Shown here: positions 2,965 through 17,074 of the stretch, piece by piece | How positions within the stretch are numbered: the first letter of the stretch is position 1 | How the letters are laid out: the number at the start of each line of letters is the position of its first letter | From: Shimia sp. | GTDB lineage: Bacteria; Pseudomonadota; Alphaproteobacteria; Rhodobacterales; Rhodobacteraceae | Reading direction: 5' to 3' | DNA: 64,000 nucleotides | NCBI GenBank assembly: GCA_024224295.1 | Contig: JAAENN010000275.1 | Coordinates: 1 to 64,000, forward strand | Translations under genes and position numbers: made by a program | The notes under the pieces: model-generated | Databases searched by the model: none | Seen by the model: only the letters and a program-made list of their open reading frames with translations | What the model was told of the DNA's origin: nothing

Positions 2965-3239
2965 GGAACATATCCCCTGGGATTTTTCTTTTGGTGTTTG
3001 GTGCCGACACCATGAGGGGAATGTATCATTTGGTCAAATATTTTCGTCATGCGTTACGAAAGTTTCAAGTTCCACAATTTCGAGTTGTGGTTGGGTGGGT
3101 TCCTCGTGGCAAATCCTGGCCATAACTAGGTAGGTCTCTGATTTAAGTGTGCGAGAATTGTCCAGCTTTATGGCTGATAGAGGCATTTACTTTGATCGAA
3201 CTGAACGTATTGTCCAGATTCTATATGCGCGAGGAAGTC
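2965..3239. promoter_or_regulatory. Divergent regulatory region with a 19-bp inverted repeat (3072-3090)
   Basis: This 275-nt gap must hold promoters for potD (minus) and the P450 unit (plus). It contains CCACAA (3072-3077) and its complement TTGTGG (3085-3090) around a 7-nt spacer, a plausible operator for a dimeric regulator. I see no convincing consensus -35/-10 pair. Frame is open upstream of the P450 from 3147, so part of this gap could be coding if an earlier start were used. Confidence 0.4.
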
Positions 3240-4481
3240 ATGTTCACCGACCCAGCCCCCAATTTTAATTTTGATCCCCACAGCGCAGAGTTTGCTGCTG
3301 ACCCATATACCACCTACGCCGCCATGCGGGCCATCGATATGCCCTATTATTGGGAAGAGGCGGATACGTGGATGCTGACCAAAATGGCAGATGTTGAAGC
3401 GGTCGCTCTCAATAAAAACATGTTGCGCAACAACGAAGCATTTGTCAGTGAAATAGATCGCAAAGAGCAACAGCGCGCGATTAATTTCCATGATATGCCT
3501 TACCACGAACGCTACGTTCAAGTGAACTTGCTTGAGAGCGAGGGTGAGACACACAGCCGTCTCCGCAAGGTGGTGTTTCGAGAGTTTACACCTGCAATGA
3601 TCTCGCGTCAGAGAGAGGCTATTCAGACTTTTGTTGACGGGCTGCTCGAGGAACTCTCGGATCAGAACGAGATCGATTTTGTCAGTGATTTTGCCGCGCA
3701 TGTACCGGGGCACATAATTGGGCGTGTTTTGGGTGTTCCGGATGAAGACGCGCCCAAGCTTCGGCATTGGTCGGAAGAAGTTGTGCGCTTTTTTGATCCA
3801 GGCCGAGAAGACGCAGATAAAGCACGGGCAGAATTCGCAACCAAAGAGTTTTACGAGTATCTCCTGGACCTATTGGCAACGCGCGAAGCCGCGTTGCAGG
3901 ACGACTTGTTGAGCCGTTTGATCGGGCATCGCGATGCTGGTCAATTAAGCCAGGACGAATTGATTTCCACGGCTATGCTTATATTAATGGCCGGCCATGG
4001 CTCAACGATTGACGTTTTGGGGAGTGGTATGCATGCGCTTCTACGATTCCCGGATCAAAACCAAAGGCTTCGTGACGACGCTGCATTGATGAAGACTGCC
4101 GTGCAAGAGATGTTTCGGTTTGAGTCGCCACTACCGTATTTTCATCGATTTGCGACTGAAGAGACCGAGGTCGGCGGTCGAAAATTTCCTGCCGGAACCC
4201 GTTTCGGATTGCTGTATGGCGCGGCTAACCATGATCCTGTTCGCTTTGACAATCCTGACAAATTTGATGTTGGGCGGAGCCCTAATCGGCATTTGGCGTT
4301 TGGTGGCGGAGGGCATTTTTGCCTTGGAAACCACCTCGCGCGTTTGGATATGGACGTGATTTTCTCCTCTATCAACGCACGCTTTTCCGGCATTGAACTG
4401 GCGGACACGAAGGTCGAATACAAGCGTGGTCTTTCCGTGCGGGGGCCAAAGGCGCTGCGCATGGGTTGGAAACGAGCCTAA
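3240..4481 (+). CDS. Cytochrome P450 (bacterial class I) lacking the usual I-helix acid
   Basis: Soluble haem monooxygenase, 413 residues from the chosen ATG at 3240, which has GAGGA a few bases upstream; in-frame ATGs at 3147 and 3225 are alternatives, but family length favours 3240. The haem-thiolate loop FGGGGHFCLG places the axial cysteine at residue 361, and the K-helix ExxR pair is E290/R293. The I-helix reads AGHGST (residues 251-256): the alcohol T256 is present, but the acidic residue normally just before the threonine pair is G254. The ferredoxin gene follows after 13 nt, indicating a class I electron-transfer pair. No reductase gene is nearby. Substrate unknown; the AraC regulator downstream suggests an inducible catabolic step. 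Confidence 0.93.
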   Translation: MFTDPAPNFNFDPHSAEFAADPYTTYAAMRAIDMPYYWEEADTWMLTKMADVEAVALNKNMLRNNEAFVSEIDRKEQQRAINFHDMPYHERYVQVNLLESEGETHSRLRKVVFREFTPAMISRQREAIQTFVDGLLEELSDQNEIDFVSDFAAHVPGHIIGRVLGVPDEDAPKLRHWSEEVVRFFDPGREDADKARAEFATKEFYEYLLDLLATREAALQDDLLSRLIGHRDAGQLSQDELISTAMLILMAGHGSTIDVLGSGMHALLRFPDQNQRLRDDAALMKTAVQEMFRFESPLPYFHRFATEETEVGGRKFPAGTRFGLLYGAANHDPVRFDNPDKFDVGRSPNRHLAFGGGGHFCLGNHLARLDMDVIFSSINARFSGIELADTKVEYKRGLSVRGPKALRMGWKRA

Positions 4482-4494
4482 GGAGGGTGCTTGG

Positions 4495-4815
4495 ATGGTA
4501 AAACTTACTTTTTTAAAAGCCGATGGGTCTCAAGTTGAAACCGACGTCGCCCCCGGGAATTCTCTCATGCAGGCCGCAGTTAATGCTGGCGTCGATGCAA
4601 TTGCTGCTGAGTGTGGTGGAGCATGTGCCTGCGGGACGTGCCATTGTGTGCTGCCTCAGGACTGGTTTGAGCGCGTGGCCGCTCCGGCATCGGATGAGAT
4701 CGATATGCTTGAGTTTGTGATTGAGCCGCAACCCACCAGCCGTTTGAGTTGTCAGGTGGTGGTCACAGAAGAGATGCAGGACATGGTGATCAGCGTGCCC
4801 GATACACAGGTGTAA
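4495..4815 (+). CDS. 2Fe-2S ferredoxin, adrenodoxin/putidaredoxin type
   Basis: Small electron carrier, 106 residues, almost certainly the redox partner of the P450 ending 13 nt upstream. The cluster ligands follow the vertebrate-type/ISC spacing: C40-x5-C46-x2-C49 and a distal C86 in RLSCQ. Two further cysteines (C44, C51) lie inside the loop. A strong Shine-Dalgarno (AGGAGGG, 4481-4487) overlaps the P450 stop and fixes the start at 4495. Electrons would come from an NAD(P)H ferredoxin reductase encoded elsewhere. Confidence 0.93.
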   Translation: MVKLTFLKADGSQVETDVAPGNSLMQAAVNAGVDAIAAECGGACACGTCHCVLPQDWFERVAAPASDEIDMLEFVIEPQPTSRLSCQVVVTEEMQDMVISVPDTQV

Positions 4816-4821
4816 AGCCAG

Positions 4822-5559
4822 TTGCGTTTCTCTGAGTTTGAAACCTCTAGTATTGTTTTTAATGCCGCGCCAGGTGACTTTGAACTATGGCCTTATAGTG
4901 TACCTGTTGCAGGACGTACAATTGCGCGTTCTTCAGATGGCTTGGTGCGTCAGAATTACCACGAGCATGGCGCGGATGTTGAAGCCGAGTGGGCATATTT
5001 TTGGATGGCTATTTGTGGTCACGGACTGAACAAGCTGCATCGTCAGTTTGGTTTTGACATGGCCCCAGTATTGAGTGGTTGTAGCGAATTTACCGAGTCT
5101 TTTGACACGGCGGTTACAAGGCTATCACAAGCTCGGCCTTCCAATGGCGGGGCTATGAGCGCTTTAGTTGCCGAAATCTTGGCGAAGCTTTCCAGGCTGA
5201 GATGTAGCCGGCATCCGGTTGGAGGAGGGACGGTGGTCTCTCAAATTGCACAAGAAGTAAGGAAAGAGTTAGATCGAGCGTGGGACATTGCCGAGTTGGT
5301 GAACTTATCTGGCGCGAGCCAGTCTCAGCTATTTCGGCGGTTCAAAGCCGAAACGGGCCAAAGTCCTATGGGCTGGCTACGCAAAGAACGGATGGTTTTG
5401 GCAAGCTACTTGCTGCGCACCACCGAGCAACCGATTTCACAAGTGGCTTTGCGTTGCGGATACCAAGATCCATTTCATTTCAGTCGGGATTTCAAGAAGC
5501 TCGAGGGAATTCCTCCTCGCGCATATCGGGCAAGGTTTCGTAGCGTCGTAAAAGTCTGA
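4822..5559 (+). CDS. AraC-family transcriptional regulator (TTG start)
   Basis: DNA-binding activator, 245 residues. The C-terminal third carries the two AraC helix-turn-helix units: WDIAELVNLSGASQSQLFRRF and ISQVALRCGYQDPFHFSRDFK, the latter being the classic family signature. The N-terminal part is a weakly recognisable effector domain. The only start that keeps the N-terminal domain is TTG at 4822, six bases after the ferredoxin stop; no good Shine-Dalgarno precedes it, so expression is probably coupled to the ferredoxin. Its position as third gene of the P450 unit suggests it controls this unit, perhaps through the inverted repeat at 3072-3090. Effector unknown. Confidence 0.88.
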   Translation: MRFSEFETSSIVFNAAPGDFELWPYSVPVAGRTIARSSDGLVRQNYHEHGADVEAEWAYFWMAICGHGLNKLHRQFGFDMAPVLSGCSEFTESFDTAVTRLSQARPSNGGAMSALVAEILAKLSRLRCSRHPVGGGTVVSQIAQEVRKELDRAWDIAELVNLSGASQSQLFRRFKAETGQSPMGWLRKERMVLASYLLRTTEQPISQVALRCGYQDPFHFSRDFKKLEGIPPRAYRARFRSVVKV

Positions 5560-5672
5560 AGTACGACAGTTTTGGGTATAAAATGCGGTGACGCACGATG
5601 GCCAAAATTACCTTTCATCAAGAACTGTTCTACAGTGGGGCGTGCGAGAGGGAGAGTTTGCCTAGGAGGTTT

Positions 5673-6788
5673 TTATAGCAACCTCCAGGATGAGTTGGCT
5701 TCCGATGACTTCTGACAGGCATGTATGAAGCGCATCCCGGCCATGGCATCCATAAGACCCGGAACGTCGGATGCCGCCCCGGTTTCTCCAGTTAGCTCAC
5801 GTGCAATATCACTGTAAAGCGTTGCAAATGCTTCTAGGTACCCTTCTGGGTGTCCGCTGGGAATACGAGAAACGGAGTTGGCGGCATCATGTGCTCCGAC
5901 CCCGGCACGAGTTATACGTTGCTCGGTACCGCCTATTGGAGTGTAGATTAATTGGTTTGGGTTTTCCTGCTCCCATAAAAGGCCGCCTTTAGTGCCATGA
6001 ATGCGCAGTTTTAGGTCATTCTCTTTACCTGTAGCAACTTGACTCGCAAATATGGAACCGCGTGCTCCGGTCGCAAACCTAAGCAGAATATGCGCGTTGT
6101 CATCGACTTGTCTGCCCTCAACAAAGCTACTGAGGTCCGCGGAGAGATGGCTGGCGTTTTCGCCCACAACAAAGGTCGCGAGGTGATATGCATGGGTGCC
6201 GATGTCTCCAATGGCACCAGCGCCCCCGGTGCGTTCAGGATCTGTGCGCCATGCCGCTTGGACGTTGTCTGGATCGGCTGGGCGAGATAGCCAGTCTTGG
6301 AGATACTCGGCATGCACCAGGCGAATTTTGCCCAAGTCACCATTGGCTACCATCTCTTTGGCTTGGCGGATCAGAGGCGATGCACTGTAGTTATGTGTCA
6401 GAAAAAAACGTGCGTCGTAGTTGTCGCATTCCTTCGCAAAGATCTGTGCCCGCGCGAGATCTGTTGTAAGTGGTTTGTCACAAATCACATGAATGCCAGC
6501 AGCCAAAAAAGCGCGGGCGATAGGCAGATGCATGTGATTGGGGGTCACAATGGACACGGCGTCGATACCGTCTTCGCGTGCGCCTTCCATGGCTGCCATC
6601 TCTTCAAATGATCGGTAGCTGCGCTCGAGCCCTATAGAGTCCGCACTGCGCTGCGCTTTTGCCGGCGTCGAAGAAAGACATCCCGCGATCAGATCCCAAT
6701 GTCCGTCAAGGCGTGCGGCCATGCGGTGCACAGCGCCAATAAAGGCACCTTCGCCACCGCCCACCATGCCAAGTTTCAATTTTTGCAT
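5673..6788 (-). CDS. Gfo/Idh/MocA-family sugar dehydrogenase (candidate 3-dehydrogenase)
   Basis: NAD(P)-dependent oxidoreductase, 371 residues, last gene of the sugar operon. The N-terminal Rossmann fold starts MQKLKLGMVGGGEGAFIG; the catalytic lysine is in CDKPLT (about residue 104) and the active-site Asp/His pair in GDIGTHAYHL. The stretch YLQDWLSRP followed by the GDIGTH motif resembles what I recall of levoglucosan 3-dehydrogenase and ThuB-like enzymes. Start ATG at 6788 has AGGAG nearby (GTAGGAGATGAAATG). It follows a TIM-barrel isomerase gene by 8 nt. I infer that it oxidises or reduces C3 of an imported sugar or anhydrosugar; the class is certain, the substrate is not. Confidence 0.88.
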   Translation of the reverse strand: MQKLKLGMVGGGEGAFIGAVHRMAARLDGHWDLIAGCLSSTPAKAQRSADSIGLERSYRSFEEMAAMEGAREDGIDAVSIVTPNHMHLPIARAFLAAGIHVICDKPLTTDLARAQIFAKECDNYDARFFLTHNYSASPLIRQAKEMVANGDLGKIRLVHAEYLQDWLSRPADPDNVQAAWRTDPERTGGAGAIGDIGTHAYHLATFVVGENASHLSADLSSFVEGRQVDDNAHILLRFATGARGSIFASQVATGKENDLKLRIHGTKGGLLWEQENPNQLIYTPIGGTEQRITRAGVGAHDAANSVSRIPSGHPEGYLEAFATLYSDIARELTGETGAASDVPGLMDAMAGMRFIHACQKSSEANSSWRLL

Positions 6789-6796
6789 TTCATCTC

Positions 6797-7852
6797 CTAC
6801 AAACCAAGAAGCGCTCGGGTGTCGTCTCGGCTCAACCCACTATCGGCGAAGTCGTCAAATGCCTTTTGAGTCACGTTGATGATGTGATCTGCGATAAACG
6901 GCGCTCCTTCGGCTGCACCGGTGGCCGCGTCTTTAAGGCAGCATTCCCATTCCAGTACGGCCCAGCTGTCATAGCCGTATTCTGCCAGTTTGGAGAAAAT
7001 CGCGCCGAAGTCGACTTGGCCGTCACCTAAAGACCGGAAGCGTCCGGCACGCTCCAGCCAGGGCTGGTAACCAGAATAAACGCCTTGACGACCGTCCGGA
7101 CGGAACTCAGCGTCTTTTACATGGTAAGCTGTGATGCGTTCGTGGTAGATGTCGATAAATGCCAGATAGTCGAGTTGTTGTAGCAAGAAATGGCTTGGGT
7201 CGTAATTTATCGTACAACGTTTATGCCCATTTAGGCGATCTAGCAGCATTTCAAAAGTCGCGCCATCGAAGAGATCTTCACCCGGGTGCAACTCAAACGC
7301 GATGTCTACACCTGCCTCATCATAAGCGTTCATGATGGGCAGCCAACGCCGAGCGAGTTCTTCAAAGGCCTCCTCAATCAGTTCTGCTGGTCTCTGCGGC
7401 CAAGGATAGAGATATGGAAATGCCAAAGAGCCTGAGAAACTCACCGAAGTTGTGAGCCCTAGTTTTTGAGAGGCTTTTGCGGCGTTCAACAACTGTTCAT
7501 GGGCCCACTCTTGGCGTGCAGTTTTATTGCCGTGAACCGCGGAAGGCGCAAAGCCATCAAACTGCTTGTCGTAAGCAGGGTGAACTGCGAGCAGCTGACC
7601 TTGAATGTGCGTCGAGAGTTCAGTGACCTCTAACCCACGATCCGCCAACATGCCGGCGAGATCGTCGCAATATGTCTGTGACGATGCGGCTTTGTCGAGA
7701 TCAAAAAGCCGCAGGTCCCCCGATGGGATTTGTAGCCCTTTGTAACCTAATCCCGATGCCCAATCCGCAATGCTCTCCAACGAATTGAAGGGCGTTTGGT
7801 CGGAGGCAAATTGCGCAAGAAACAGGCCAGGCCCTTTGAGGTTTGTTGGCAT
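6797..7852 (-). CDS. Sugar phosphate isomerase/epimerase-like TIM-barrel protein (long form)
   Basis: Xylose-isomerase-like TIM barrel, 351 residues. Likely divalent-metal ligands lie on the expected strands: E in FELHPGE, D/H in NYDPSHFLL, H in AYHVKDAEF and E in VLEWECC. It overlaps the upstream Gfo/Idh/MocA gene in an ATGA junction and is followed 8 nt later by a second dehydrogenase. Proteins of this fold paired with Gfo/Idh/MocA enzymes can act as isomerases, epimerases or as beta-eliminases/hydratases on 3-keto-sugars. I cannot choose between these from sequence alone, but the duplicated pairing in this operon favours a lyase/hydratase role. Confidence 0.85.
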   Translation of the reverse strand: MPTNLKGPGLFLAQFASDQTPFNSLESIADWASGLGYKGLQIPSGDLRLFDLDKAASSQTYCDDLAGMLADRGLEVTELSTHIQGQLLAVHPAYDKQFDGFAPSAVHGNKTARQEWAHEQLLNAAKASQKLGLTTSVSFSGSLAFPYLYPWPQRPAELIEEAFEELARRWLPIMNAYDEAGVDIAFELHPGEDLFDGATFEMLLDRLNGHKRCTINYDPSHFLLQQLDYLAFIDIYHERITAYHVKDAEFRPDGRQGVYSGYQPWLERAGRFRSLGDGQVDFGAIFSKLAEYGYDSWAVLEWECCLKDAATGAAEGAPFIADHIINVTQKAFDDFADSGLSRDDTRALLGL

Positions 7853-8988
7853 CAGGTTTCCTCCAACTCCATGATTGCAAAGGCATCGTCTGCGCCAAAC
7901 GGCGCTGGGCGGTTACATGTGCTTTGGATCGCAACCGTTTCTCCGGAGTCGCCTGACTGTAAGATCGCGCCCATCACTTCGACGACATGTAACGCCAACT
8001 CGTTGTTACAGCGATGTTGGCGGCCATCGCGGATGGCGGCGGCCATGTCAGCTAAACCCGCGCCACGGTAGTTGGCATTGTCTCCGTCGTTTGGTTTGGA
8101 GAACGGGTGTCCCGAGGAGATCAGAGCCTCATCATCGTCGCTGCGGACAAGTCGGAGTTGGCCTCCGAAGAAGTTGGGATCTGGTACGTAGAGAGTTCCG
8201 TCGAGGCCGTAGATCTCCATATTGTTGTGTTCATGGGATTTCACGTCCCAGCTGGTGCCGTAGCTGATGATCGCCCCATTTGCGAATTTCAAGATCGAGT
8301 GCGCCGTCGTCGGTGTCTCAACCGGAATTTTATCTCCATTTCGTGGACCACAGGCGATGGTACGGTGGCTGCGCGGCGTGCTGCTCATGGCTGTCACACT
8401 ATCGACAGGGCCCAGCAACTGCACCAGGTTGGTTAAGTAGTATGGCGCTAAGTCAAAGATGGGACCGGCACCCGGCAGGAAAAAGAAATCCGGGTTGGGA
8501 TGCCAGTGTTCCATACCTCCGCTCATCACGTGGATGGTGCCTGAGGTTACTTGTCCAATTTCGCCGTTGTCCAATATCTCGCGGGCTTTCTGGTGGCTGC
8601 CGCCCATAAAAGTGTCAGGGGCGGAGCCGATACGGAGGTTGCGTGCGGCGGCCAACTCAGACAGTTTCGCGCCTTCCTCAGCAGTCAGTACAAACGGCTT
8701 TTCCGAATAAACGTGTTTCCCGGCTTTTAGGATTTCGCTCGACACATCAAAATGCGCTGCGGGAACGGTCAAGTTGACCACAATTTCAATTTCCGGATCG
8801 GCCAAGAGCCCGTCAATGCTCAAAGCACGCAAGCCAAACTCAGCAGCCCGTGTTTCGGCGGCATCTGGGTTCAAGTCGGCGCAAGCTTCAACTTTGTAGT
8901 CTTTGAAAAACTGTCCCATGCGCATGTAAGTGGTGGAGATGTTGCCGCATCCGATAATGCCAACTTTTACTGCAGTACCCATGATCAA
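7852..8988 (-). CDS. Gfo/Idh/MocA-family oxidoreductase (second paralogue)
   Basis: Second NAD(P)-dependent dehydrogenase of the operon, 378 residues (or 376 from the second ATG two codons in). The dinucleotide fold is VGIIGCGNIS, the catalytic lysine is in YSEKPF, and the substrate domain has GPIFDLAPYYLTNLVQLLG. It differs clearly from the 371-residue enzyme downstream, which suggests two distinct redox steps rather than a recent duplication. Both ends overlap neighbours by 1-4 nt (ATGA junctions), so the four enzyme genes are translated as a tightly coupled block. Likely role: the opposite redox reaction (re-reduction of a 3-keto-sugar) or oxidation of a second substrate. Confidence 0.87.
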   Translation of the reverse strand: MIMGTAVKVGIIGCGNISTTYMRMGQFFKDYKVEACADLNPDAAETRAAEFGLRALSIDGLLADPEIEIVVNLTVPAAHFDVSSEILKAGKHVYSEKPFVLTAEEGAKLSELAAARNLRIGSAPDTFMGGSHQKAREILDNGEIGQVTSGTIHVMSGGMEHWHPNPDFFFLPGAGPIFDLAPYYLTNLVQLLGPVDSVTAMSSTPRSHRTIACGPRNGDKIPVETPTTAHSILKFANGAIISYGTSWDVKSHEHNNMEIYGLDGTLYVPDPNFFGGQLRLVRSDDDEALISSGHPFSKPNDGDNANYRGAGLADMAAAIRDGRQHRCNNELALHVVEVMGAILQSGDSGETVAIQSTCNRPAPFGADDAFAIMELEET

Positions 8989-9731
8989 ATTTCCTTAAGG
9001 TTGGCCATAGAGACGGATGCAAATCGCACAGCGTCGCTCGGATTGTCTTGTTCTGCGACCAGAAGTGCGTTGGGCGCCTGATCGCGGATTTGACGGATCA
9101 ATCCGGTCCAATCCATTACGCCTTCCCCGATATCGGACCAGCCGTCTTCATCGAGGCCTTCACCGTCTCTGGCGATGTCCTTGACGTGAACGGCGACAAG
9201 ACGGTCTGCGTGCTTCGCGACAATCGGAGCAGGGTCCAAACCTGCTCGGGCAACCCAACCAAGGTCCGCTTCCCAGCCGATGTTCGGCGCGGTTTCTAAA
9301 ATGACATCCATTGGGTAGCTGCCGTCCTCCAACGCTTCATATTCGAAGTCGTGGTTGTGCCACGAGAAAGTCCTGCCGGTTGCGCTGACCTTTTCGCCAA
9401 TTTCGGACAACTCCTTTGCGAACGCATGCCAGCCGGCTTTGTCTGCTGGGCGTGCTTCGGCCACGAGATAAGGTACAATGACGTGTTTGATGCCAAAAGT
9501 GTCTGCAAGCATCATGGTGCCGTCAAAGTTGTCGCGCAGGTCATCGATGCCAAAGTGGCCGCTTGGCATGGTCAAGCCGTTGTCAGACATGGCTTTGGCA
9601 AAGGAGTCTGGGTTGCCGTAAACACCACCGTAGCCTTCGACGCTGGTGTAGCCGAGTTCGGCCAGATTTGAGAGGAAAGCCTCTTGGCTCGCGACATTGC
9701 GCGAGGAGTACAGTTGGAACGAAAAGCTCAT
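8985..9731 (-). CDS. Sugar phosphate isomerase/epimerase-like TIM-barrel protein (short form)
   Basis: Second xylose-isomerase-like TIM barrel in the operon, 248 residues. It has the motifs WHNHDFEY, WEADLGWV, VHVKDIAR and LVAEQDNP, which supply the usual Glu/Asp/His/Glu metal site. It begins 21 nt after the ABC ATPase and overlaps the next dehydrogenase by four bases. Short members of this family next to Gfo/Idh/MocA genes include 3-keto-sugar hydratases, eliminases and subunits of C-glycoside-cleaving enzymes. The exact reaction is inferred only from operon context. Confidence 0.86.
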   Translation of the reverse strand: MSFSFQLYSSRNVASQEAFLSNLAELGYTSVEGYGGVYGNPDSFAKAMSDNGLTMPSGHFGIDDLRDNFDGTMMLADTFGIKHVIVPYLVAEARPADKAGWHAFAKELSEIGEKVSATGRTFSWHNHDFEYEALEDGSYPMDVILETAPNIGWEADLGWVARAGLDPAPIVAKHADRLVAVHVKDIARDGEGLDEDGWSDIGEGVMDWTGLIRQIRDQAPNALLVAEQDNPSDAVRFASVSMANLKEI

Positions 9732-9752
9732 GAAAGTCTCCAGAAATGAGCG

Positions 9753-10835
9753 TCAAAGACGGTCTTCAGTTGATTTGTCAAAGAGAGATCCCTGGGCGGG
9801 ATCAAAGCCGATTTCGAGTGTGTCGCCTGCCGCCACTGTGGCTTTTCCGCTCATGCGGAAGCGGAAAGGAGTTCCGGCAAGTGTTGTGTAAATTAGTGTG
9901 TCTGACCCCATAGGTTCCACCAATTCCACCGTGATCTCAGCCGTGATTGGTTGTTGATCGACATCTGTTCCCGTGATCACGGCTTCAGGGCGGATGCCGA
10001 GCCAGGCCGGCCGCGCCGTCAGAGCGCCCTGAGAGGCTTCATAGCCTCTGAGTGGGAAGTGTATGTCTGCAGAAAGGAACTCCCTTCCGCCATCAGTAAT
10101 GGAGCCTTCAAAGAAGTTGATCGTAGGGGATCCGATGAAGCCTGCCACGTATTTGTTAGACGGGCGGTTATAAACCTCTGATGGGCTGGCGATCTGCTGC
10201 ACCACACCGCCGCGCATGATGGCAATGCGATCTGCTAGTGTCATCGCCTCGACTTGATCGTGGGTCACGTAGATCATCGTGTTATCGAGCTTCTGGTGCA
10301 GGAGCTTGAGTTCCACACGCAAGTCGGCGCGCAGCTTTGCATCTAGGTTCGACAGGGGTTCGTCAAACAGAAACACATCTACATCGCGCACTAAGGCGCG
10401 ACCGATTGCGACCCGTTGACGCTGTCCGCCGGACAGGGCGGCAGGTTTGCGCTTCAGAAGGGACTCAATTTGCAGGATTTCAGCAGCACGCGTCACCCGT
10501 TTTGCGATTTCAGGCTTTGGTACTTTGGCGTTTTTCAATCCAAACGACAGGTTCCCCTCCACCGACATCTGCGGATAGAGCGCGTAGGATTGAAATACCA
10601 TGCCAATGCCGCGCTCGGATGGTTCTTCCCAGGTGACATTGCGCCCTCCAATATGGATTTCTCCATCCGTGATATCGAGCAGGCCAGCGATGCAGTTTAA
10701 CAAAGTGGATTTTCCGCACCCGGAGGCGCCAAGAAGCACAAGAAACTCGCCTTCCCGGACGTCGATGTTGAGCTTGTCCAAGACGCGCACGGCGCCAAAT
10801 TCAAGAGTGAGGTCTTTTACTGTTACGTTGGTCAT
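9753..10835 (-). CDS. Sugar ABC transporter ATP-binding protein (MalK/UgpC family)
   Basis: ATPase of the carbohydrate importer, 360 residues. Walker A GASGCGKST, signature LSGGQRQR, Walker B/D-loop FLFDEPLSNLD and H-loop YVTHDQVEA are all intact, followed by a TOBE/OB-type regulatory region as in MalK/UgpC. It starts 2 nt after the second permease gene and is followed by the enzyme genes. Length and motifs are normal for the CUT1 class. It energises uptake of the sugar handled by the downstream enzymes. Confidence 0.92.
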   Translation of the reverse strand: MTNVTVKDLTLEFGAVRVLDKLNIDVREGEFLVLLGASGCGKSTLLNCIAGLLDITDGEIHIGGRNVTWEEPSERGIGMVFQSYALYPQMSVEGNLSFGLKNAKVPKPEIAKRVTRAAEILQIESLLKRKPAALSGGQRQRVAIGRALVRDVDVFLFDEPLSNLDAKLRADLRVELKLLHQKLDNTMIYVTHDQVEAMTLADRIAIMRGGVVQQIASPSEVYNRPSNKYVAGFIGSPTINFFEGSITDGGREFLSADIHFPLRGYEASQGALTARPAWLGIRPEAVITGTDVDQQPITAEITVELVEPMGSDTLIYTTLAGTPFRFRMSGKATVAAGDTLEIGFDPAQGSLFDKSTEDRL

Positions 10836-10837
10836 AG

Positions 10838-11794
10838 TCAGCCCTTAACCGCGCCAGCAGCGATGCCGCGCACGAAGAGTTTGCCGGAGGCAAAGTAGAT
10901 GATGAGGGGTACGAGGCCGGTGAGCATGGTTGCGGCCATATTGACGTTGTATTCTTTAACGCCTTGTACCGAGTTTACGATGTTGTTGAGCTGCACCGTC
11001 ATCGGATAGGTGTCCGGTTTGGTGAAGATCACGCCAAAGAGAAAGTCGTTCCAGATACCGGTTACCTGTAAGATGATTGCCACGACAAAGATTGGCAGGG
11101 CCATTGGCAGCATGATCTGAAAGTAGATCTGCCAGAACCCCGCACCGTCCACTCTTGCCGCCTTGAAAAGTTCCTCGGGCACAGAGGCAAAGTAATTGCG
11201 AAACAGAAGGGTCAGGATCGGCATGCCAAAGATCGTGTGCACGATCACCAAGCCCCAGATGCTGCCCATTAAGCGTATTTTGGTGCCGGTGATGAGCGAA
11301 AGCCCTTCGCCTGCTTCGCGCAGGAGGATCACCATGGGATAGATCATTACCTGGTAGGGGATGAATGCGCCAAAAATCAGGATGGTGAAGAACACCTCAG
11401 AGCCTTTGAACTTCCACAGCGATAGTGCGTAGCCGTTCACCGAAGCGATGGCGATCGAGATAACCACGGATGGAATAAGGATTTGAACCGAGTTCCAGAA
11501 ACCCCGCGAAAGGCCGTCACAGTTGATGCCGGTACAGGCTTCCGCCCAAGCTTTGACCCACGGCTCGAATGTGATTTCGACCGGCGGGGCGAAGACGTTT
11601 CCTAAGCGGATTTCCGGCATGCCTTTGAGTGACGTCACCATCATCACGTAAAGTGGAAGTAGGTAATAGAGTGCGGCTACAACAAGCGTGCCGTAAAGCA
11701 TGATGTTTGCTGGGGTGAGGCGCTTACGGGGTTTGGCCCCGCGCGGAGCTACGCCAAGGTCGACGGGTGTATCAGTCACGGCCTTTGCCTCCAA
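10838..11794 (-). CDS. Carbohydrate ABC transporter permease (MalG-type)
   Basis: Second inner-membrane permease of the importer, 318 residues, with about six hydrophobic spans. The EAA coupling loop is recognisable around EELFKAARVDGAGFWQIYFQI followed by a MLPMALP motif. The C-terminus ends VRGIAAGAVKG, typical of CUT1 MalG-like permeases. The start overlaps the first permease gene by 23 nt; the 25 residues before the first span are hydrophilic and basic. Substrate selectivity would come mainly from the binding protein. Confidence 0.92.
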   Translation of the reverse strand: MEAKAVTDTPVDLGVAPRGAKPRKRLTPANIMLYGTLVVAALYYLLPLYVMMVTSLKGMPEIRLGNVFAPPVEITFEPWVKAWAEACTGINCDGLSRGFWNSVQILIPSVVISIAIASVNGYALSLWKFKGSEVFFTILIFGAFIPYQVMIYPMVILLREAGEGLSLITGTKIRLMGSIWGLVIVHTIFGMPILTLLFRNYFASVPEELFKAARVDGAGFWQIYFQIMLPMALPIFVVAIILQVTGIWNDFLFGVIFTKPDTYPMTVQLNNIVNSVQGVKEYNVNMAATMLTGLVPLIIYFASGKLFVRGIAAGAVKG

Positions 11795-12704
11795 ATTCGA
11801 GATAGGCCCACGGGATCAGTACCACGAGGACTGAGAGCAGCATCATGGTGGAGGCCGCAAAGCCTTGGCCAAGGTTTTGAGCCTGAAACATTTTTTCGAT
11901 CACGTATTTGGCGGGCACTTCGGACGCGATGCCAGGACCACCGGAAGTTTGTGCCACCACGAGATCGTAGACCTTGATAATGCCTGCGGCGATAAGAACC
12001 AGAGCGGTTACAAAGATCGGACGCATCATCGGAATGACAATGAAGATATAGGTTTTCCACACGGGAATGCCTTCAACGCGTGAAGCTTTCCAGATATCCT
12101 CGTCGATGCCACGCAAGCCCGCCAGCAGGATCACCATGATAAAGCCTGAACCTTGCCAGATACCCGCGATCAAAATGCCGTAGATCACAATGCTGGGGTT
12201 GTTCAGCGGGTCAAACGTGAAGCTTTCCCAGCCCCAACGCTGTATCACGCCCTGGATGCCGAACTGAGGGTTCAAGATCCACTGCCAGACGAGGCCGGTT
12301 ACAACAAAGCTGAGTGCGAAAGGGTAGAGGAAGATAGTGCGGAACACACCTTCACCACGGATTTTGCGGTCTAGCAAAGCAGCCAGCGTAAAGCCGATCA
12401 CCAAACTTAGCACCAACGAACAAATTCCATAGATCGCGAGGTTCTCAATGGAGACAAGCCATCGGCGTGTGCTCCAAAGACGCTCATATTGGTCCAAGCC
12501 TACCCATTTTTCCGGGGCTGGCAGTAATTTGGATTTGGTGAACGAGTGATAGATCGTCCAAAGGGTGCAGCCGATGAACACCACCAAAGCGGTAAAGATC
12601 ATAGGGATGGCGGCAAGTTTTGCCGTCATGTTTTTGAAAAGGCGGTTGGGCCGCTTGGCGGGTGTCTGAGTGGACTCCACACGTGCGCCGTCTGTCACAG
12701 CCAT
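11772..12704 (-). CDS. Carbohydrate ABC transporter permease (MalF-type)
   Basis: First permease of the importer, 310 residues from the ATG at 12704 (MAVTDGARVES). An in-frame ATG at 12746 would add 14 residues; I prefer the internal start because the added residues look non-conserved. It has six membrane spans, with the coupling loop in EDIWKASRVEGIPVWKTYIF and the motif VIPMMRP. It resembles glucose/mannose-type GtsB permeases. The gap to the upstream binding-protein gene carries a stem-loop. Confidence 0.9.
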   Translation of the reverse strand: MAVTDGARVESTQTPAKRPNRLFKNMTAKLAAIPMIFTALVVFIGCTLWTIYHSFTKSKLLPAPEKWVGLDQYERLWSTRRWLVSIENLAIYGICSLVLSLVIGFTLAALLDRKIRGEGVFRTIFLYPFALSFVVTGLVWQWILNPQFGIQGVIQRWGWESFTFDPLNNPSIVIYGILIAGIWQGSGFIMVILLAGLRGIDEDIWKASRVEGIPVWKTYIFIVIPMMRPIFVTALVLIAAGIIKVYDLVVAQTSGGPGIASEVPAKYVIEKMFQAQNLGQGFAASTMMLLSVLVVLIPWAYLEFGGKGRD

Positions 12705-12785
12705 GGCTTGGGTCTCCAGCCTGATAGGTCTGAGTGTGACCATCATCAGGTCCGATAGGGGAAATTGGGGGCGGCAGGAAAACGA

Positions 12786-12806
12786 AGCCCGCGCTAGGGG
12801 CGGGCT
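12786..12806 (-). promoter_or_regulatory. Intercistronic stem-loop after the sugar-binding-protein gene
   Basis: AGCCCGC (12786-12792) pairs with GCGGGCT (12800-12806) across a 7-nt loop, 13 nt beyond the binding-protein stop. No long T run follows, so a full terminator is unlikely. It is in the same place as the hairpin between potD and potA and would favour a higher level of binding protein than permease. Structure seen; function inferred. Confidence 0.6.
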
Positions 12807-12818
12807 CCGTACCTTGGA

Positions 12819-14048
12819 TTAATCCGCGTCTGCGATGATCTCAGCATACTTCGCTTGAGCGTCTGCGGCTGAGTAGGAGGGATCGTTCCAGAACTCGACC
12901 ATTAGATCTTCGATCTGAGTTGAGGTGTCTGCGGATAGAACCTGATCGCCAGATTGTAAGATGTTGCCGGAAGCCAAGATTTCCAAACCTTTCTTCATGC
13001 AGTCATTTGCGGCGGTGAGGTCGATGTCGCCGCGCACAGGTAGGGAACCTTTTTTCAGGTTGAAGTTTACCTGAACTTCTGGGCTCAGGAGCAGTTTGGC
13101 CAACTCTTTCTGCGCGGCTTCGATTTCAGGATCATCTTGTTTTGGGAAGTAGAACGCATCGCCACCGGTGGATATGATTTCATTCACACCCAGTCCTGGC
13201 AGGCAAGTGTAATCCTGACCGGCAACTTGACCGGCAACTTGGAATTCACCTTGAGCCCAGTCCCCCATTACTTGACCGCCTGCTTGGCCGGTGATCACGA
13301 GGTTGGTCGCCTGGTTCCAATCCTGAACCTTGGAGTTCGCAGCCATGGCACGCGCTGCTGCGGCTGCTTCAAATACTTTAGCCATCTCAGGGCCTGCTGC
13401 GGCTTCGGCGTCTTTGTTGACGTTAATTTTGTTCCATAGCTCAGGGCCACCCACCGCCACGTTGATTACGCCAAAGGCGCCGGAGGATTGCCAAGCTTGC
13501 TGCCCCATCGCGAGTGGAATTTTGCCAGCGGCTTCAAGCGCAGGCGCGGAAGCAACAAACTCATCCCAATTGGAGGGTACGTCGACGCCCGCGTCAGCGT
13601 AAGCTTGATGGCTCAGCCAAATCCACTGCCAGGAGTGAATGTTGACCGGTGCGCAATAGATTTTGCCATCAACCGTGCAGCTGTCGAGCAGGGACGTCGG
13701 ATTGACCGTGTCAGCCCAGCCTTCGGCGGTCGCGACGTCGGTCAAATCTAGCATCAAGCCAGCTTCGATAAGTTCTTCCGCCTGGCGACCGTGGTTCAGT
13801 TGCGTGGCATGCATTGGATCGCCGCCGATGATCCGGCTAACAATGATCGGGCGGGCGGTTCCACCAGAACCAGCGATGGCGCCGTCTACCCAATTGTTTC
13901 CTGTCGCATCAAAGGCCTTAGCAAACTCCGCGACCGCAGCGGCTTCGCCGCCTGAGGTCCACCAGTGAGTGACTTCGAGGTCTGCTGCGGACACGGCACC
14001 GGCCGCACAAAACGCAATCGCTGCAGTGGTTGCTTTGTAAAAGTTCAT
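12819..14048 (-). CDS. Extracellular sugar-binding protein (ABC importer, CUT1)
   Basis: Periplasmic solute-binding protein, 409 residues, first gene of the operon. The signal peptide covers about residues 1-21 (AGAVSA before ADLEVTHWW). The mature start LEVTHWWTSGGEAAAVAEFAKAF and the later CAPVNIHSWQWIW resemble glucose/mannose-type binding proteins (GtsA-like). The Shine-Dalgarno GGGAGGA lies four bases before the ATG. One palindromic operator (14080-14093) is only 32 bases upstream of the start, so a bound LacI regulator would block this promoter region. Ligand: probably a mono- or anhydro-sugar; unproven. Confidence 0.9.
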   Translation of the reverse strand: MNFYKATTAAIAFCAAGAVSAADLEVTHWWTSGGEAAAVAEFAKAFDATGNNWVDGAIAGSGGTARPIIVSRIIGGDPMHATQLNHGRQAEELIEAGLMLDLTDVATAEGWADTVNPTSLLDSCTVDGKIYCAPVNIHSWQWIWLSHQAYADAGVDVPSNWDEFVASAPALEAAGKIPLAMGQQAWQSSGAFGVINVAVGGPELWNKINVNKDAEAAAGPEMAKVFEAAAAARAMAANSKVQDWNQATNLVITGQAGGQVMGDWAQGEFQVAGQVAGQDYTCLPGLGVNEIISTGGDAFYFPKQDDPEIEAAQKELAKLLLSPEVQVNFNLKKGSLPVRGDIDLTAANDCMKKGLEILASGNILQSGDQVLSADTSTQIEDLMVEFWNDPSYSAADAQAKYAEIIADAD

Positions 14049-14079
14049 TATATCCTCCCAATGTCGGCCAATACGGCCG

Positions 14080-14093
14080 TGTAATCGATTACA
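14080..14093. promoter_or_regulatory. LacI-family operator O1 (perfect 14-bp palindrome)
   Basis: TGTAATCGATTACA is perfectly self-complementary and has the central CG step typical of LacI/GalR operators. It sits just upstream of the sugar-binding-protein gene. An identical copy lies at 14163-14176; the centres are 83 bp apart, close to eight helical turns, so the two sites face the same side of the DNA. Confidence 0.85.
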
Positions 14094-14162
14094 TTTCCTC
14101 CCAAAAAACTCCTGCCAGTTCCAAACCCTTGTATCAGGCGGTGTGTGGCATTGACAGAAGCT

Positions 14163-14176
14163 TGTAATCGATTACA
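14163..14176. promoter_or_regulatory. LacI-family operator O2 (identical palindrome, in the lacI-type promoter)
   Basis: A second exact TGTAATCGATTACA. On the plus strand it follows a consensus -35 TTGACA (14151-14156), so it fills the -35/-10 spacer of the probable promoter of the LacI-type gene. This placement implies autorepression of the regulator as well as cooperative repression of the sugar operon with O1. Confidence 0.82.
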
Positions 14177-14234
14177 CAACGCTAGCTCTACCCGTTAGAG
14201 TGAGTCAATAAATAATTTGAGGCCAGAAATAATA

Positions 14235-15272
14235 GTGAGTACTTCCAAGCCTAAAGTTGTTGATGTTGCGCGGCTGGCCGGTGTTTCCACGGCTACTGTT
14301 AGCCGGGTGCTAAATGATCCGGGGGTCGTGTCAGAAGCTACCAGAGAAGCTGTTTTGACGGCAGTCAAAGAGACTGGATACCGCGTCAATCGAGCGGCGA
14401 GAAATTTGCGAACGAACACATCCCGTACGGTGCTTGCTTTGGTGCCAAACCTTTCTAACCCATTTTTTTCCAATATTCTTTCTGGCCTAGAAAGGGAGCT
14501 CAACGCTGCTGACTATAGTTTGTTGGTAACCGATAGTGGGGATGGGCCGCTGTCCGCAGATCATATACAGCGCTATATTGCGGCAGGGCAGGCGGATGGG
14601 CTTATTATTCTGGATGGAAGTATCGAACTCAGCGAGCTTGAACGTGTTCAGTCTGCTGCGCCTCCTGTTCCGATCGTTTTTGCCTGCGAATGGGTTGAGG
14701 GTTTCTCTGGACCATCTGTGCGGGCGGACAATGCGGAGGGGATTCGCATGTTGGTACAACATCTCTGGGACCTAGGGCACCGCCGGTTTGGTCATGTCTC
14801 AGGTCCGCAAACCAATGTGTTGTCTGTCCATCGCAAACGCGCGTTTAAACAATCTGTTCTTAAGTGTGGCGGCGACGTGAGGGCGGAATGGGTTATACCC
14901 GGAAGCTTTTCTATTGCCGCTGGCAAAGAGGCAGCACTGCTCGTTCCCGAATTGCGTGACGGGCCGACAGCCTGGGTCTGTGCCAGTGATCAAATTGCCT
15001 TTGGGTTGATCGCAGGCTTGACGGAAGCGGGTATCAACGTGCCTGAAGATGTTTCTGTCACTGGATTTGACAATATAGAAATGACCGAGGTCTTTAACCC
15101 ACCACTCACTACGATACATCAGCACCGAAACAAAATGGGTAATGAAGCTGCGCGTAGAGTTTTGCAACTTCTTAAGGGGGGGCAACCAGACGCAAGTTCA
15201 CCCACAGTTATGCCTGTATATTTGGTCAATCGCAAAAGTACCGGTCCGGTCGGAGCACAGTCGCAGGCTTGA
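14235..15272 (+). CDS. LacI/GalR-family transcriptional regulator of the sugar operon
   Basis: Repressor of 345 residues from the GTG at 14235; a TTG at 14217 would add six residues and cannot be excluded. The N-terminal HTH is VVDVARLAGVSTATVSRVLND, and the hinge helix region RAARNLRTN follows. The rest is a periplasmic-binding-protein-like effector domain (LALVPNLSNPFFSNIL, ending with MPVYLVNRKST). It is divergent from the sugar operon, and the two identical palindromes between them are its obvious binding sites. The inducer should be the imported sugar or a derivative. Confidence 0.92.
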   Translation: MSTSKPKVVDVARLAGVSTATVSRVLNDPGVVSEATREAVLTAVKETGYRVNRAARNLRTNTSRTVLALVPNLSNPFFSNILSGLERELNAADYSLLVTDSGDGPLSADHIQRYIAAGQADGLIILDGSIELSELERVQSAAPPVPIVFACEWVEGFSGPSVRADNAEGIRMLVQHLWDLGHRRFGHVSGPQTNVLSVHRKRAFKQSVLKCGGDVRAEWVIPGSFSIAAGKEAALLVPELRDGPTAWVCASDQIAFGLIAGLTEAGINVPEDVSVTGFDNIEMTEVFNPPLTTIHQHRNKMGNEAARRVLQLLKGGQPDASSPTVMPVYLVNRKSTGPVGAQSQA

Positions 15273-15284
15273 TTTTTAAAGGCT

Positions 15285-16289
15285 CTATCCGCCGGTGTGG
15301 CTCATGTGGCGAGTCATTTGTCCGTCGACCACCTGACGGGAATAGTCAAAGTCGTGACCTTTGGGTTTGAGTGCGATAGCGGCGCGAATGGCTTCTTCAA
15401 GAGATATGTCGCTTTCGCTGCCGCGTAGGGCGCCACGCAGATCCGCCATGTCTTCTTGCCCTAGGCACATGAACAACTGACCGGTGCAGGTCAGGCGCAC
15501 ACGGTTGCAGCTTTCGCAGAAATTATGGGTCATCGGCGTGATGAAACCTATCTTCTGACCGGTTTCCTCCAGACGCACATAGCGGGCAGGGCCACCGGTG
15601 CGTTCGGCGAGATCGGTTAGCGTGTAGCGCTCTGCAAGCCGGCTGCGCAGATTATCAAGAGACCAATATTGGTCAATGCGATCCTCATTGCCCAGATCCC
15701 CCATCGGCATAACCTCAATCCAGGTCATGTCCATGTCACGTTCCGCGCACCACTCTGCCAGCGTAAAGAGTTCGTCCTCGTTGAAGCCTTTCAGAGCGAC
15801 CGCGTTGATCTTGATGCGCAGACCCGCAGCCTGAGCGGCGTCAATGCCGCGCATCACTTGCTCAAGACGGCCCCACCGAGTGATGTCTGCAAATTTTTGG
15901 TCGTCGATGGTGTCCATAGAGATGTTCACCCGTCGTACACCATAGGAGTAGAGTTCTTCGGCGAAGCGCTCCAGTTGAGATCCATTGGTCGTCAGCGTCA
16001 GCTCTTTCAATGCGCCACTATCCAAATGTCGCTTCATGCCTTTGAAAAAGGTCATGATGTCACGCCGCACCAAAGGCTCGCCCCCGGTGATACGCAGTTT
16101 TTCAACCCCCAACCGGATAAATGTGGAGCACATACGATCCAACTCTTCGAGCGTCAGAAGTTCCTTTTTGGGAAGGAACGTCATGTTTTCCGCCATGCAA
16201 TACACACAACGGAAGTCGCATCTGTCAGTGACGGATACACGCAGGTAAGATACTGCGCGGTGAAACGGATCGATCAATGGTGCAGTCAT
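15285..16289 (-). CDS. moaA: GTP 3',8-cyclase MoaA (molybdenum cofactor synthesis)
   Basis: Radical-SAM enzyme for the first step of molybdopterin synthesis (GTP to 3',8-cyclo-GTP), 334 residues. The N-terminal 4Fe-4S site is C24-x3-C28-x2-C31 in the motif CDFRCVYC. The C-terminal cluster cysteines are in [13 protein letters not shown] plus the later C in QLFMC. The protein ends HTGG, the double-glycine tail that MoaA needs for activity. Length is normal. It is convergent with the LacI-type gene and about 100 nt downstream of the AlkD-like gene. Confidence 0.96.
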
Positions 16290-16393
16290 ATAGCATTGGT
16301 AGTCGGCAAACTAGAGATGGGCAAGGGCGCCTAAAGTTGTAGTGCCAAAACATTTTGGTGAGCACGAGTGCTTTTGCGTAGTGTCTAGCTTTG

Positions 16394-17074
16394 CTAACCC
16401 AAGTGCTTTCTGGCTTCTTTCACGGCAAATGGCTTCATCTCGTCGGCATGTTTCTCCAAAAAGGCGTAGACGCGATCTGGATCGTGCTTTGACAGATCGC
16501 GCAACCACCAGCCAATGGCTTTTTGAATAAACCATGCGTGATCAGGGGTATAGCCTGCCGCCCAGCCCAAAACGCGGTCACGGGTTTGCGACTCTTCCGG
16601 CTTGGGGTGGTTCTGCTTTGTCCACGGTAGTGTGATGACCAAGGCTGCGCGGCGCGTCCACATGTGTTCGGAGGTGGTCCAGGTCTCCACCAGGTCCAGG
16701 CGGGTCGGATCAGCGACCAGACGCTTTTGGCCAGCCATACAGGCGTGGTCTGCAAGGGCCCAACTGTCAAAATCGGGTGTCCAGCTGGCGATCAAACGCC
16801 AGGCTTCCTCATCCGGACGCACGCGGGCTTGGGTGAGAACTTTTGAAGCGGCAATGCGGGCTTCGAAAATGTCGGTTTGCCAAAGATCGGATGCAAGCTG
16901 GACGCGCTGTTCTACTGTCAGCGTTTGTCGCCAGGTCTTGGCGACCTCATTGAGTGCCGGGTTTGGTATGCCCAAAACCTGCCGCTTCTGTTTGTGATAG
17001 GCGGCCATGCCTGCGGCACGTCCGGGTTCGATCAGCGCTTCCAGCGCAGTTAAGGCATCCTTTAGCTGCATCAT
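16394..17074 (-). CDS. DNA alkylation repair protein (AlkD-like HEAT-repeat glycosylase)
   Basis: Predicted all-helical AlkD-type protein, 226 residues, which would excise N3- or N7-alkylpurines. Family-like stretches include MGIPNPALNEVAK-type sequence near residue 35 (here VLGIPNPALNEVAKTW), TDIFEARIAA, and W..DSWALADHAC with later TRRAALVITLPW and WFIQKAIGWWLRDLSKHDP. The HEAT-repeat pattern rather than a short catalytic motif supports the call. Its start overlaps the glmS stop by four bases, so it is the third gene of a glmU-glmS-alkD unit. Activity is inferred from the family. Confidence 0.85.
   Translation of the reverse strand: MMQLKDALTALEALIEPGRAAGMAAYHKQKRQVLGIPNPALNEVAKTWRQTLTVEQRVQLASDLWQTDIFEARIAASKVLTQARVRPDEEAWRLIASWTPDFDSWALADHACMAGQKRLVADPTRLDLVETWTTSEHMWTRRAALVITLPWTKQNHPKPEESQTRDRVLGWAAGYTPDHAWFIQKAIGWWLRDLSKHDPDRVYAFLEKHADEMKPFAVKEARKHLG

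Follow-up and report, generated by a model that had tools for sequence, protein, structure and literature searches.

We analyzed a 64,000-nucleotide stretch of DNA from the marine bacterium Shimia sp. (assembly GCA_024224295.1, contig JAAENN010000275.1, positions 1 to 64,000; hereafter, the window) and focused on a sugar operon at positions 5673-15272, in which eight near-contiguous genes lie on the minus strand with a divergent lacI gene opposite (Table 1). All open reading frames (ORFs) of this block were verified at the coordinates and strands given in an earlier reading of the same DNA (the first-pass annotation), and consecutive genes on the minus strand are separated by 72, -23, 2, 21, 2, -1, and 8 bases. 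Pfam models scoring above cut-off identified two GFO_IDH_MocA proteins, two AP_endonuc_2 TIM barrels, an ABC_tran+TOBE ATPase, two BPD_transp_1 permeases, an SBP_bac_1 protein, and a LacI protein, in agreement with the gene set described earlier (a CUT1 importer, two Gfo/Idh/MocA proteins, two TIM barrels, and a LacI regulator in one tight block). One dehydrogenase had been counted at 378 residues; this ORF exists and has a TTG start at 8988, but the ATG two codons in (8980-8982), 2 bases past the stop codon of the 248-aa protein gene, is most likely the start, resulting in a protein of 376 aa. In the public annotation, the four enzyme genes are named "sugar phosphate isomerase/epimerase" and "Gfo/Idh/MocA family oxidoreductase". 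Because the gene order was found again in other Rhodobacterales and in Rhizobiales, the arrangement is not due to chance; among the named matches listed for the 351-aa protein, the nearest is from Shimia ALOHA_ZT_64 (94%), which marks the genome as Shimia-like. Based on comparisons of gene identities, residues, gene pairing, and the operator, we suggest, with a probability of roughly 83%, that this operon is a non-hydrolytic glycoside-utilization locus, i.e. that it would import a glycoside and convert it to glucose by C3 oxidation, elimination, hydration, and reduction.

Table 1 Genes and predicted operator sites of the Shimia operon
Feature	Position	Strand	Basis or remark
371-aa Gfo/Idh/MocA protein, proposed 3-keto-glucose reductase	5673..6788	-	Homologues beside hydratase, tree
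351-aa TIM barrel, 2-hydroxy-3-keto-glucal hydratase orthologue	6797..7852	-	63% to AtHYD 8ro4
376-aa Gfo/Idh/MocA protein, putative glycoside C3-dehydrogenase (NAD-dependent)	7852..8982	-	Pfam, gene pairing, tree
248-aa TIM barrel, proposed Mn2+-dependent 3-keto-beta-glycoside 1,2-lyase (AtOGE-like)	8985..9731	-	Sequence, active-site residues, model
UgpC/MalK-type importer ATPase	9753..10835	-	NF008653, 435.8 bits (cut-off 432)
CUT1 permease, G-type	10838..11794	-	BPD_transp_1; GlcU/UgpE-like, under cut-offs
CUT1 permease, F-type	11772..12746	-	BPD_transp_1; GlcT/UgpA-like, under cut-offs
CUT1 solute-binding protein, operon gene 1	12819..14048	-	SBP_bac_1; apparent N-terminal signal peptide, by eye
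Operator palindrome TGTAATCGATTACA (predicted), closer to solute-binding protein gene	14080..14093		
Operator palindrome TGTAATCGATTACA (predicted), closer to lacI	14163..14176		
LacI-family repressor (predicted), start codon uncertain	14217..15272	+	LacI + Peripla_BP_3

Residues 4-350 of the 351-aa protein aligned with the solved 2-hydroxy-3-keto-glucal hydratase AtHYD of Agrobacterium tumefaciens (8ro4; 520 bits; 63% identity by BLAST), and the two proteins have the motifs ELHPGED, DPSHF, HVKDAEF, and EWEC in common. According to the accessible text of PMC10628242, A. tumefaciens has a non-hydrolytic glucoside operon with the order GlycDH-AtOGE-AtHYD-Gfo, in which the flavoenzyme GlycDH opens glycosides and the Gfo oxidoreductase has been assigned 3-keto-glucose reduction; the Gfo protein was tested in a one-pot reaction containing NADH as well as AtOGE and AtHYD, and the authors themselves termed the hydratase evidence from this reaction preliminary. 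The 371-aa protein matched the solved, functionally unassigned oxidoreductase 3v5n with 444 bits and was 53-58% identical to Gfo proteins encoded next to hydratase genes in Phaeobacter (58%), Ketogulonicigenium (55%), Palleronia (53%), and Rhizobium rhododendri (53%). The last three loci encode a hydratase together with an AtOGE-type lyase (in R. rhododendri, a fragment), and those of Ketogulonicigenium and Palleronia additionally encode a GMC dehydrogenase and gluconate-2-dehydrogenase subunit 3. In a tree of 52 rows, which was midpoint-rooted and in which three rows from contig C259 of the same Shimia genome and a ThuB-like row formed long branches, the 371-aa protein fell into a clade with these hydratase-adjacent Gfo proteins with a support of 97/77 (100/100 with one more row). 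Because both operon position and tree match the hydratase-adjacent Gfo proteins, we propose that the 371-aa protein is the 3-keto-glucose reductase, which would catalyze the last step.

For the 248-aa protein, the top sequence match in the PDB was 8bvk (128 bits, 35% identity), i.e. AtOGE, an O-glycoside beta-eliminase that converts 3-keto-phlorizin to phloretin and 2-hydroxy-3-keto-glucal. As far as the accessible text of PMC10628242 describes it, the AtOGE metal is bound by His132, Asp163, His189, and, weakly, Glu233, with His134 as catalytic base; Glu39, His66, and Glu161, with His132, surround an alternative metal position. All eight active-site residues of AtOGE are conserved in the 248-aa protein (E32, H59, H125, H127, E154, D156, H182, and E227); among 24 homologues, seven of them are invariant and the equivalent of Glu161 is nearly invariant (numbering in this alignment runs one lower because the reference was taken without Met1). 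Searching with an AlphaFold model of the 248-aa protein (predicted local distance difference test score, 96.6), Foldseek ranks 1-6 were occupied by AtOGE and by 3-keto-beta-glucopyranoside-1,2-lyases of gut bacteria. The latter, from Alistipes (AL1; 8tcd and 8tcr) and B. thetaiotaomicron (BT1; 8tct), are the best fold matches with E-values of 2.4e-17 to 2.2e-16, but share just ~21-24% sequence identity with the 248-aa protein. From sequence and model, we propose that the 248-aa protein acts as an AtOGE-like beta-eliminating lyase.

We considered whether the 248-aa and 376-aa proteins instead form an epimerization module that oxidizes, epimerizes, and re-reduces its substrate and remodels a glycoside or free sugar, comparable to YcjR/YcjS of E. 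coli. The fold family does hold the 3-keto-D-glucoside 4-epimerase YcjR (6wn6, Foldseek rank 45), Art22 (rank 11), and UlaE (rank 24), and some related loci have the lyase-dehydrogenase pair without hydratase and reductase in the fetched stretch. However, by Foldseek E-value the top lyase chain is ahead of YcjR by about eight and of Art22 by about five orders of magnitude, the eight AtOGE residues are all present, and the pair shares its operon with a hydratase that consumes the lyase product, so that we regard epimerization as improbable. C-glycoside deglycosylation of the DgpABC/CarBC type was rejected, because 7DNN, 7EXB, and 7EXZ were absent from the six PDB sequence matches of the lyase (E 1e-3). 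A Pfam search of the block for a second lyase subunit, as in the heterodimeric CGE type, identified none.

To place the dehydrogenase, we made use of two sets of related loci, in which genes were labeled by BLAST against one reference each using identity thresholds that we set. The hydratase-anchored set comprises the best 80 of 534 relatives, 28 with and 52 without the lyase, and close kin are therefore over-represented; the lyase-anchored set comprises 40 of the 49 best lyase matches from other genomes, nine having been skipped, several of them on small contigs. (Counted with weak matches included, 109 of 295 genomes have a lyase match.) The gene for the 376-aa protein lies directly behind the lyase gene in 67 of the 68 lyase-bearing loci (28/28 hydratase-anchored and 39/40 lyase-anchored), and in the sole exception, L137, both genes are present but were called as overlapping ORFs. 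In turn, the reductase is retained in 49 of the 52 lyase-free hydratase loci, 13 of which are stretches that end at contig ends. These two frequencies define a front pair of lyase and dehydrogenase and a back pair of hydratase and reductase, and because the pairs act as two modules, the 376-aa enzyme is the natural candidate for the first step, most likely acting as a C3-dehydrogenase at the entry of the pathway. Its residues E94-K95-P96 and D36 are invariant among 24 homologues, and we take D36, the Asp that ends the second strand, as a sign of an NAD cofactor. The fold matches of the 376-aa protein include scyllo-inositol and levoglucosan dehydrogenases at ~21% identity. We note that the 52 hydratase-anchored loci without an OGE-like lyase in the stretch (e.g. 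L012, L006, and L069) are mostly from Mesorhizobium and its kin.

ThuA/ThuB systems function in the 3-oxidation of disaccharides. In Paracoccus AK26, a Gfo protein whose gene adjoins a ThuA-domain gene shares 49% identity and a clade of the tree with the 376-aa protein; the label ThuB-like for the 376-aa protein derives from this neighbor gene and not from a characterized ThuB. Accordingly, the operon might serve a C3-oxidized disaccharide route of the trehalose, sucrose, or maltitol class, in which a TIM barrel replaces ThuA. Arguing against this route, Pfam identified no ThuA gene in the block, which instead has a lyase and a hydratase; the lyase is akin to lyases named beta-specific; and the ThuB-like row of the tree is long-branched, the comparison being to a ThuA-adjacent protein. 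We consider this route unlikely. As a separate observation, the Paracoccus copy of the operon on plasmid pAK3 (L104) is flanked at 12413-18156 by a convergent set of genes for XylA, a ThuA-domain protein, a ThuB-like Gfo protein, a UgpC ATPase, and GH43 (glycoside hydrolase family 43), possibly a ThuA-type sister system for xylosides.

The first-pass annotation had favored a route resembling that for levoglucosan (1,6-anhydroglucose). The similarity is real at the level of reaction logic, because the LgdA/LgdB1/LgdB2/LgdC pathway comprises four reactions and folds identical in kind and the same number of enzymes, and the lgd locus of B. smithii likewise has LacI and an ABC (ATP-binding cassette) importer, as described in the accessible text of PMC7676230 and, for the pathway, also PMC10066097. 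Moreover, the NCBIfam model that scores highest with the 371-aa protein is that of levoglucosan dehydrogenase (LGDH), and a fold search with the 376-aa protein places the LGDH structures 6a3g, 6a3j, and 6a3i among its top matches, at the low identity given above. However, both dehydrogenases score far under the cut-off of 650 of the LGDH equivalog NF052479 (371-aa protein, 140.7 bits; 376-aa protein, 51.6 bits), and in the tree, an LGDH above this cut-off does not join the clade that holds the 371-aa protein and is distant from the 376-aa protein. As a proxy for LgdB1, we used the TIM barrel encoded in the LGDH locus L180, with which the lyase shares 22% identity (E 0.001) versus 35% with AtOGE. 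In genome G242, this LGDH locus and a lyase-dehydrogenase operon (L134) lie on separate contigs. With no LGDH-grade dehydrogenase in the Shimia operon and with lyase and tree pointing elsewhere, we consider a levoglucosan pathway highly improbable. None of 289 alphaproteobacterial genomes encodes a protein above the LGDH cut-off, and in a wider sample of the phylum, one of 398 genomes (G242) does. The best LGDH-model score in the Shimia genome itself, 279 bits, is on a contig other than that of the operon and belongs to a second cluster (L182; G000:C259:1-16502, ~3389-13339), which has three Gfo/Idh/MocA genes, a TIM barrel gene, and a LacI-like gene nearby; this TIM barrel is weakly similar to the hydratase (27-33% over 107-112 residues). 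Inositol catabolism was also rejected, with scores of 76.2 and 57.9 bits for IolG (cut-off 355) and of 58.9 and 46.5 bits for IolE (cut-off 290).

Returning to the non-hydrolytic glycoside route, we suggest that the CUT1 transporter would import a glycoside or disaccharide, probably beta-linked. Presumably in the cytoplasm, the 376-aa enzyme would oxidize C3 of the glycosyl unit with NAD; the 248-aa Mn2+-dependent TIM barrel would then take the C2 proton and expel the C1 substituent, generating 2-hydroxy-3-keto-glucal, which the 351-aa protein would hydrate to 3-keto-glucose; and the 371-aa enzyme would reduce 3-keto-glucose to glucose, using the NADH from the first step. For this scheme, we infer the substrate, the cofactor, and the direction of each redox step. 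If the NADH of step 1 is recycled in step 4, the overall outcome would be a hydrolysis with no net cofactor use; by having an NAD-type dehydrogenase instead of a flavoenzyme, the route could be redox-neutral. The four-step 3-keto logic of the first-pass annotation is thus supported by the 63% identity of the hydratase, the position and tree placement of the reductase, and the 8/8 active-site residues of the lyase. By contrast, if its listing of the proteins as 371, 378, 351, and 248 residues was meant to correspond to LgdA, LgdC, LgdB1, and LgdB2, the roles are reversed: 376 aa for oxidation, 248 aa for the lyase, 351 aa for the hydratase, and 371 aa for the reductase. Its suggestion to align the proteins to the Lgd enzymes and ThuB was followed using proxies; by these, hydratase, reductase, and lyase group with the A. 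tumefaciens glucoside pathway, and the dehydrogenase groups with a ThuB-like protein encoded next to ThuA.

Compared with the A. tumefaciens operon, the Shimia operon has a lyase that shares fold and active-site residues with AtOGE, an orthologous hydratase, and an orthologous reductase, the last judged by its identity to hydratase-adjacent homologues and not to the A. tumefaciens protein itself. Unlike in A. tumefaciens, a Gfo/Idh/MocA dehydrogenase of the NAD type and a dedicated CUT1 importer take the place of the flavoenzyme, and the lyase belongs to a separate family. GlycDH in a locus homologous to the A. tumefaciens operon is of the GMC type and has a partner subunit; a Pfam search of 5673-15272 identified neither an FAD GlycDH (GMC) nor gluconate-2-dehydrogenase subunit 3. 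A GMC protein near 43.8 kb was rejected as an Agrobacterium-type GlycDH in the window, because it is only 25% identical to the locus type; this comparison covered the protein in the window, and the genome encodes four more GMC proteins.

Several observations weigh against our interpretation. The fold of the lyase also houses the isomerases and epimerases named above, and its identity to any assayed enzyme is only 35%. Compared with two AtOGE-type lyases of other loci, AtOGE shows 56-60% identity but the 248-aa protein only 32-34%, so that the latter forms a group of its own. No assayed enzyme is closely related to the 376-aa protein (the top match among solved chains is DgpA, with 69 bits), and we infer the cofactor (NAD), the direction, and the position of the oxidation by this enzyme. 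The hydratase is present in 23 and the reductase in 15 of the 40 lyase-anchored loci, in stretches of 7.6-20 kb, some of which end inside the operon. Among four plasmid loci with AtOGE-type lyases, L118 has no hydratase-reductase pair within its 14.7 kb, and the lyase of L120 is a 168-aa fragment; both also count against the pairing. Finally, GH2 (glycoside hydrolase family 2) or GH43 is encoded in 14/28 and 25/40 of the lyase-bearing stretches of the two sets, respectively, and hydrolysis is therefore also used nearby.

These glycosidase genes also bear on the substrate. The 28 hydratase-anchored loci with a lyase encode GH43 in 13, an aldo-keto reductase in 16, and GH2 in one case, while the 40 lyase-anchored loci encode GH2 in 18, GH43 in 17, an aldo-keto reductase in six, and XylA in one case; neither GH2 nor GH43 is encoded within the stretches covered in 14/28 and 15/40 of the relatives, and the Shimia operon also lacks both. 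Consequently, the earlier statement that glycosidase, kinase, and ThuA are missing is correct for the block as judged by Pfam, but related loci often carry GH2 or GH43. One GH2 representative matched solved beta-mannosidases (452 bits) and one GH43 representative matched beta-xylosidases (560 bits); by analogy, the substrate may be beta-linked oligosaccharides from hemicellulose or algae. The nearest solved chains of the solute-binding protein are the sugar-binding 5xpj and 5dvf (241 and 240 bits), with the glucose-binding 2b3b more distant (105 bits). In 16 of the 18 lyase-anchored Rhodobacterales stretches with a GH2 beta-mannosidase gene, this gene lies directly before the lyase gene. Because the C2 center is lost on elimination and 3-keto-glucosides and 3-keto-mannosides therefore yield the same 2-hydroxy-3-keto-glucal, we speculate that the route might be blind to C2 and convert beta-mannosides, in addition to beta-glucosides, of algal or plant polysaccharides to glucose without a kinase or mannose isomerase. 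This idea is suggested by the GH2 gene in 18/40 lyase-anchored stretches, whereas the Shimia operon has no such gene; it is a long shot.

Upstream of the operon, two perfect copies of the palindrome TGTAATCGATTACA lie between the binding-protein gene and lacI, and no further perfect copy is present in the 4.56-Mb assembly; shuffled versions of the window contained on average 0.05 matches with ≤2 mismatches. Among 63 binding-protein loci, 29 encode a LacI orthologue (at least 40% identity), and 27 of these 29 have the site with ≤1 mismatch, in 21 cases without any mismatch and in 20 cases with two sites. At the same stringency, the site occurs in 2/34 loci without a LacI orthologue, in 18/1260 random windows from the same loci, and in 0/52 hydratase-only loci. 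Thus, as judged from sequence conservation, the two palindromes are likely the LacI operator, and the divergent LacI protein would repress the operon by binding to them. Scans of 14000-14300 for sigma-70 promoters and terminators gave no match. A different perfect palindrome, CTATAACGTTATAG, is present upstream of the binding-protein gene in seven loci without a LacI orthologue (L137, L143, L144, L147, L154, L157, and L158), and L007 and L124 carry the palindrome CTGTAACGTTACAG, suggesting a regulator swap.

At the other end of the operon, a cytochrome P450 gene followed by a gene for an AraC-type regulator adjoins it at 3147-5559 of the window. In Phaeobacter inhibens DSM 17395, the operon is located on the 78-kb plasmid pPGA1_78 (L101; PGA1_RS19365-RS19405) and is arranged in two divergent halves, LacI-hydratase-reductase and importer-lyase-dehydrogenase. 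Transposon fitness data have been published for this strain; the literature listings searched showed no phenotype for its copy of the operon, which does not prove that none has been published, and the accessible text of PMC9007349 names the strain and not these genes.

The chemistry proposed here is already known, and the enzyme mix of the Shimia operon is a variant of it. Our analysis defines two modules, an opening pair of dehydrogenase and lyase and a finishing pair of hydratase and reductase. If our interpretation is correct, Shimia, Phaeobacter, Roseibium, and others would use glycosides by a route that is missed when glycosidases are counted.

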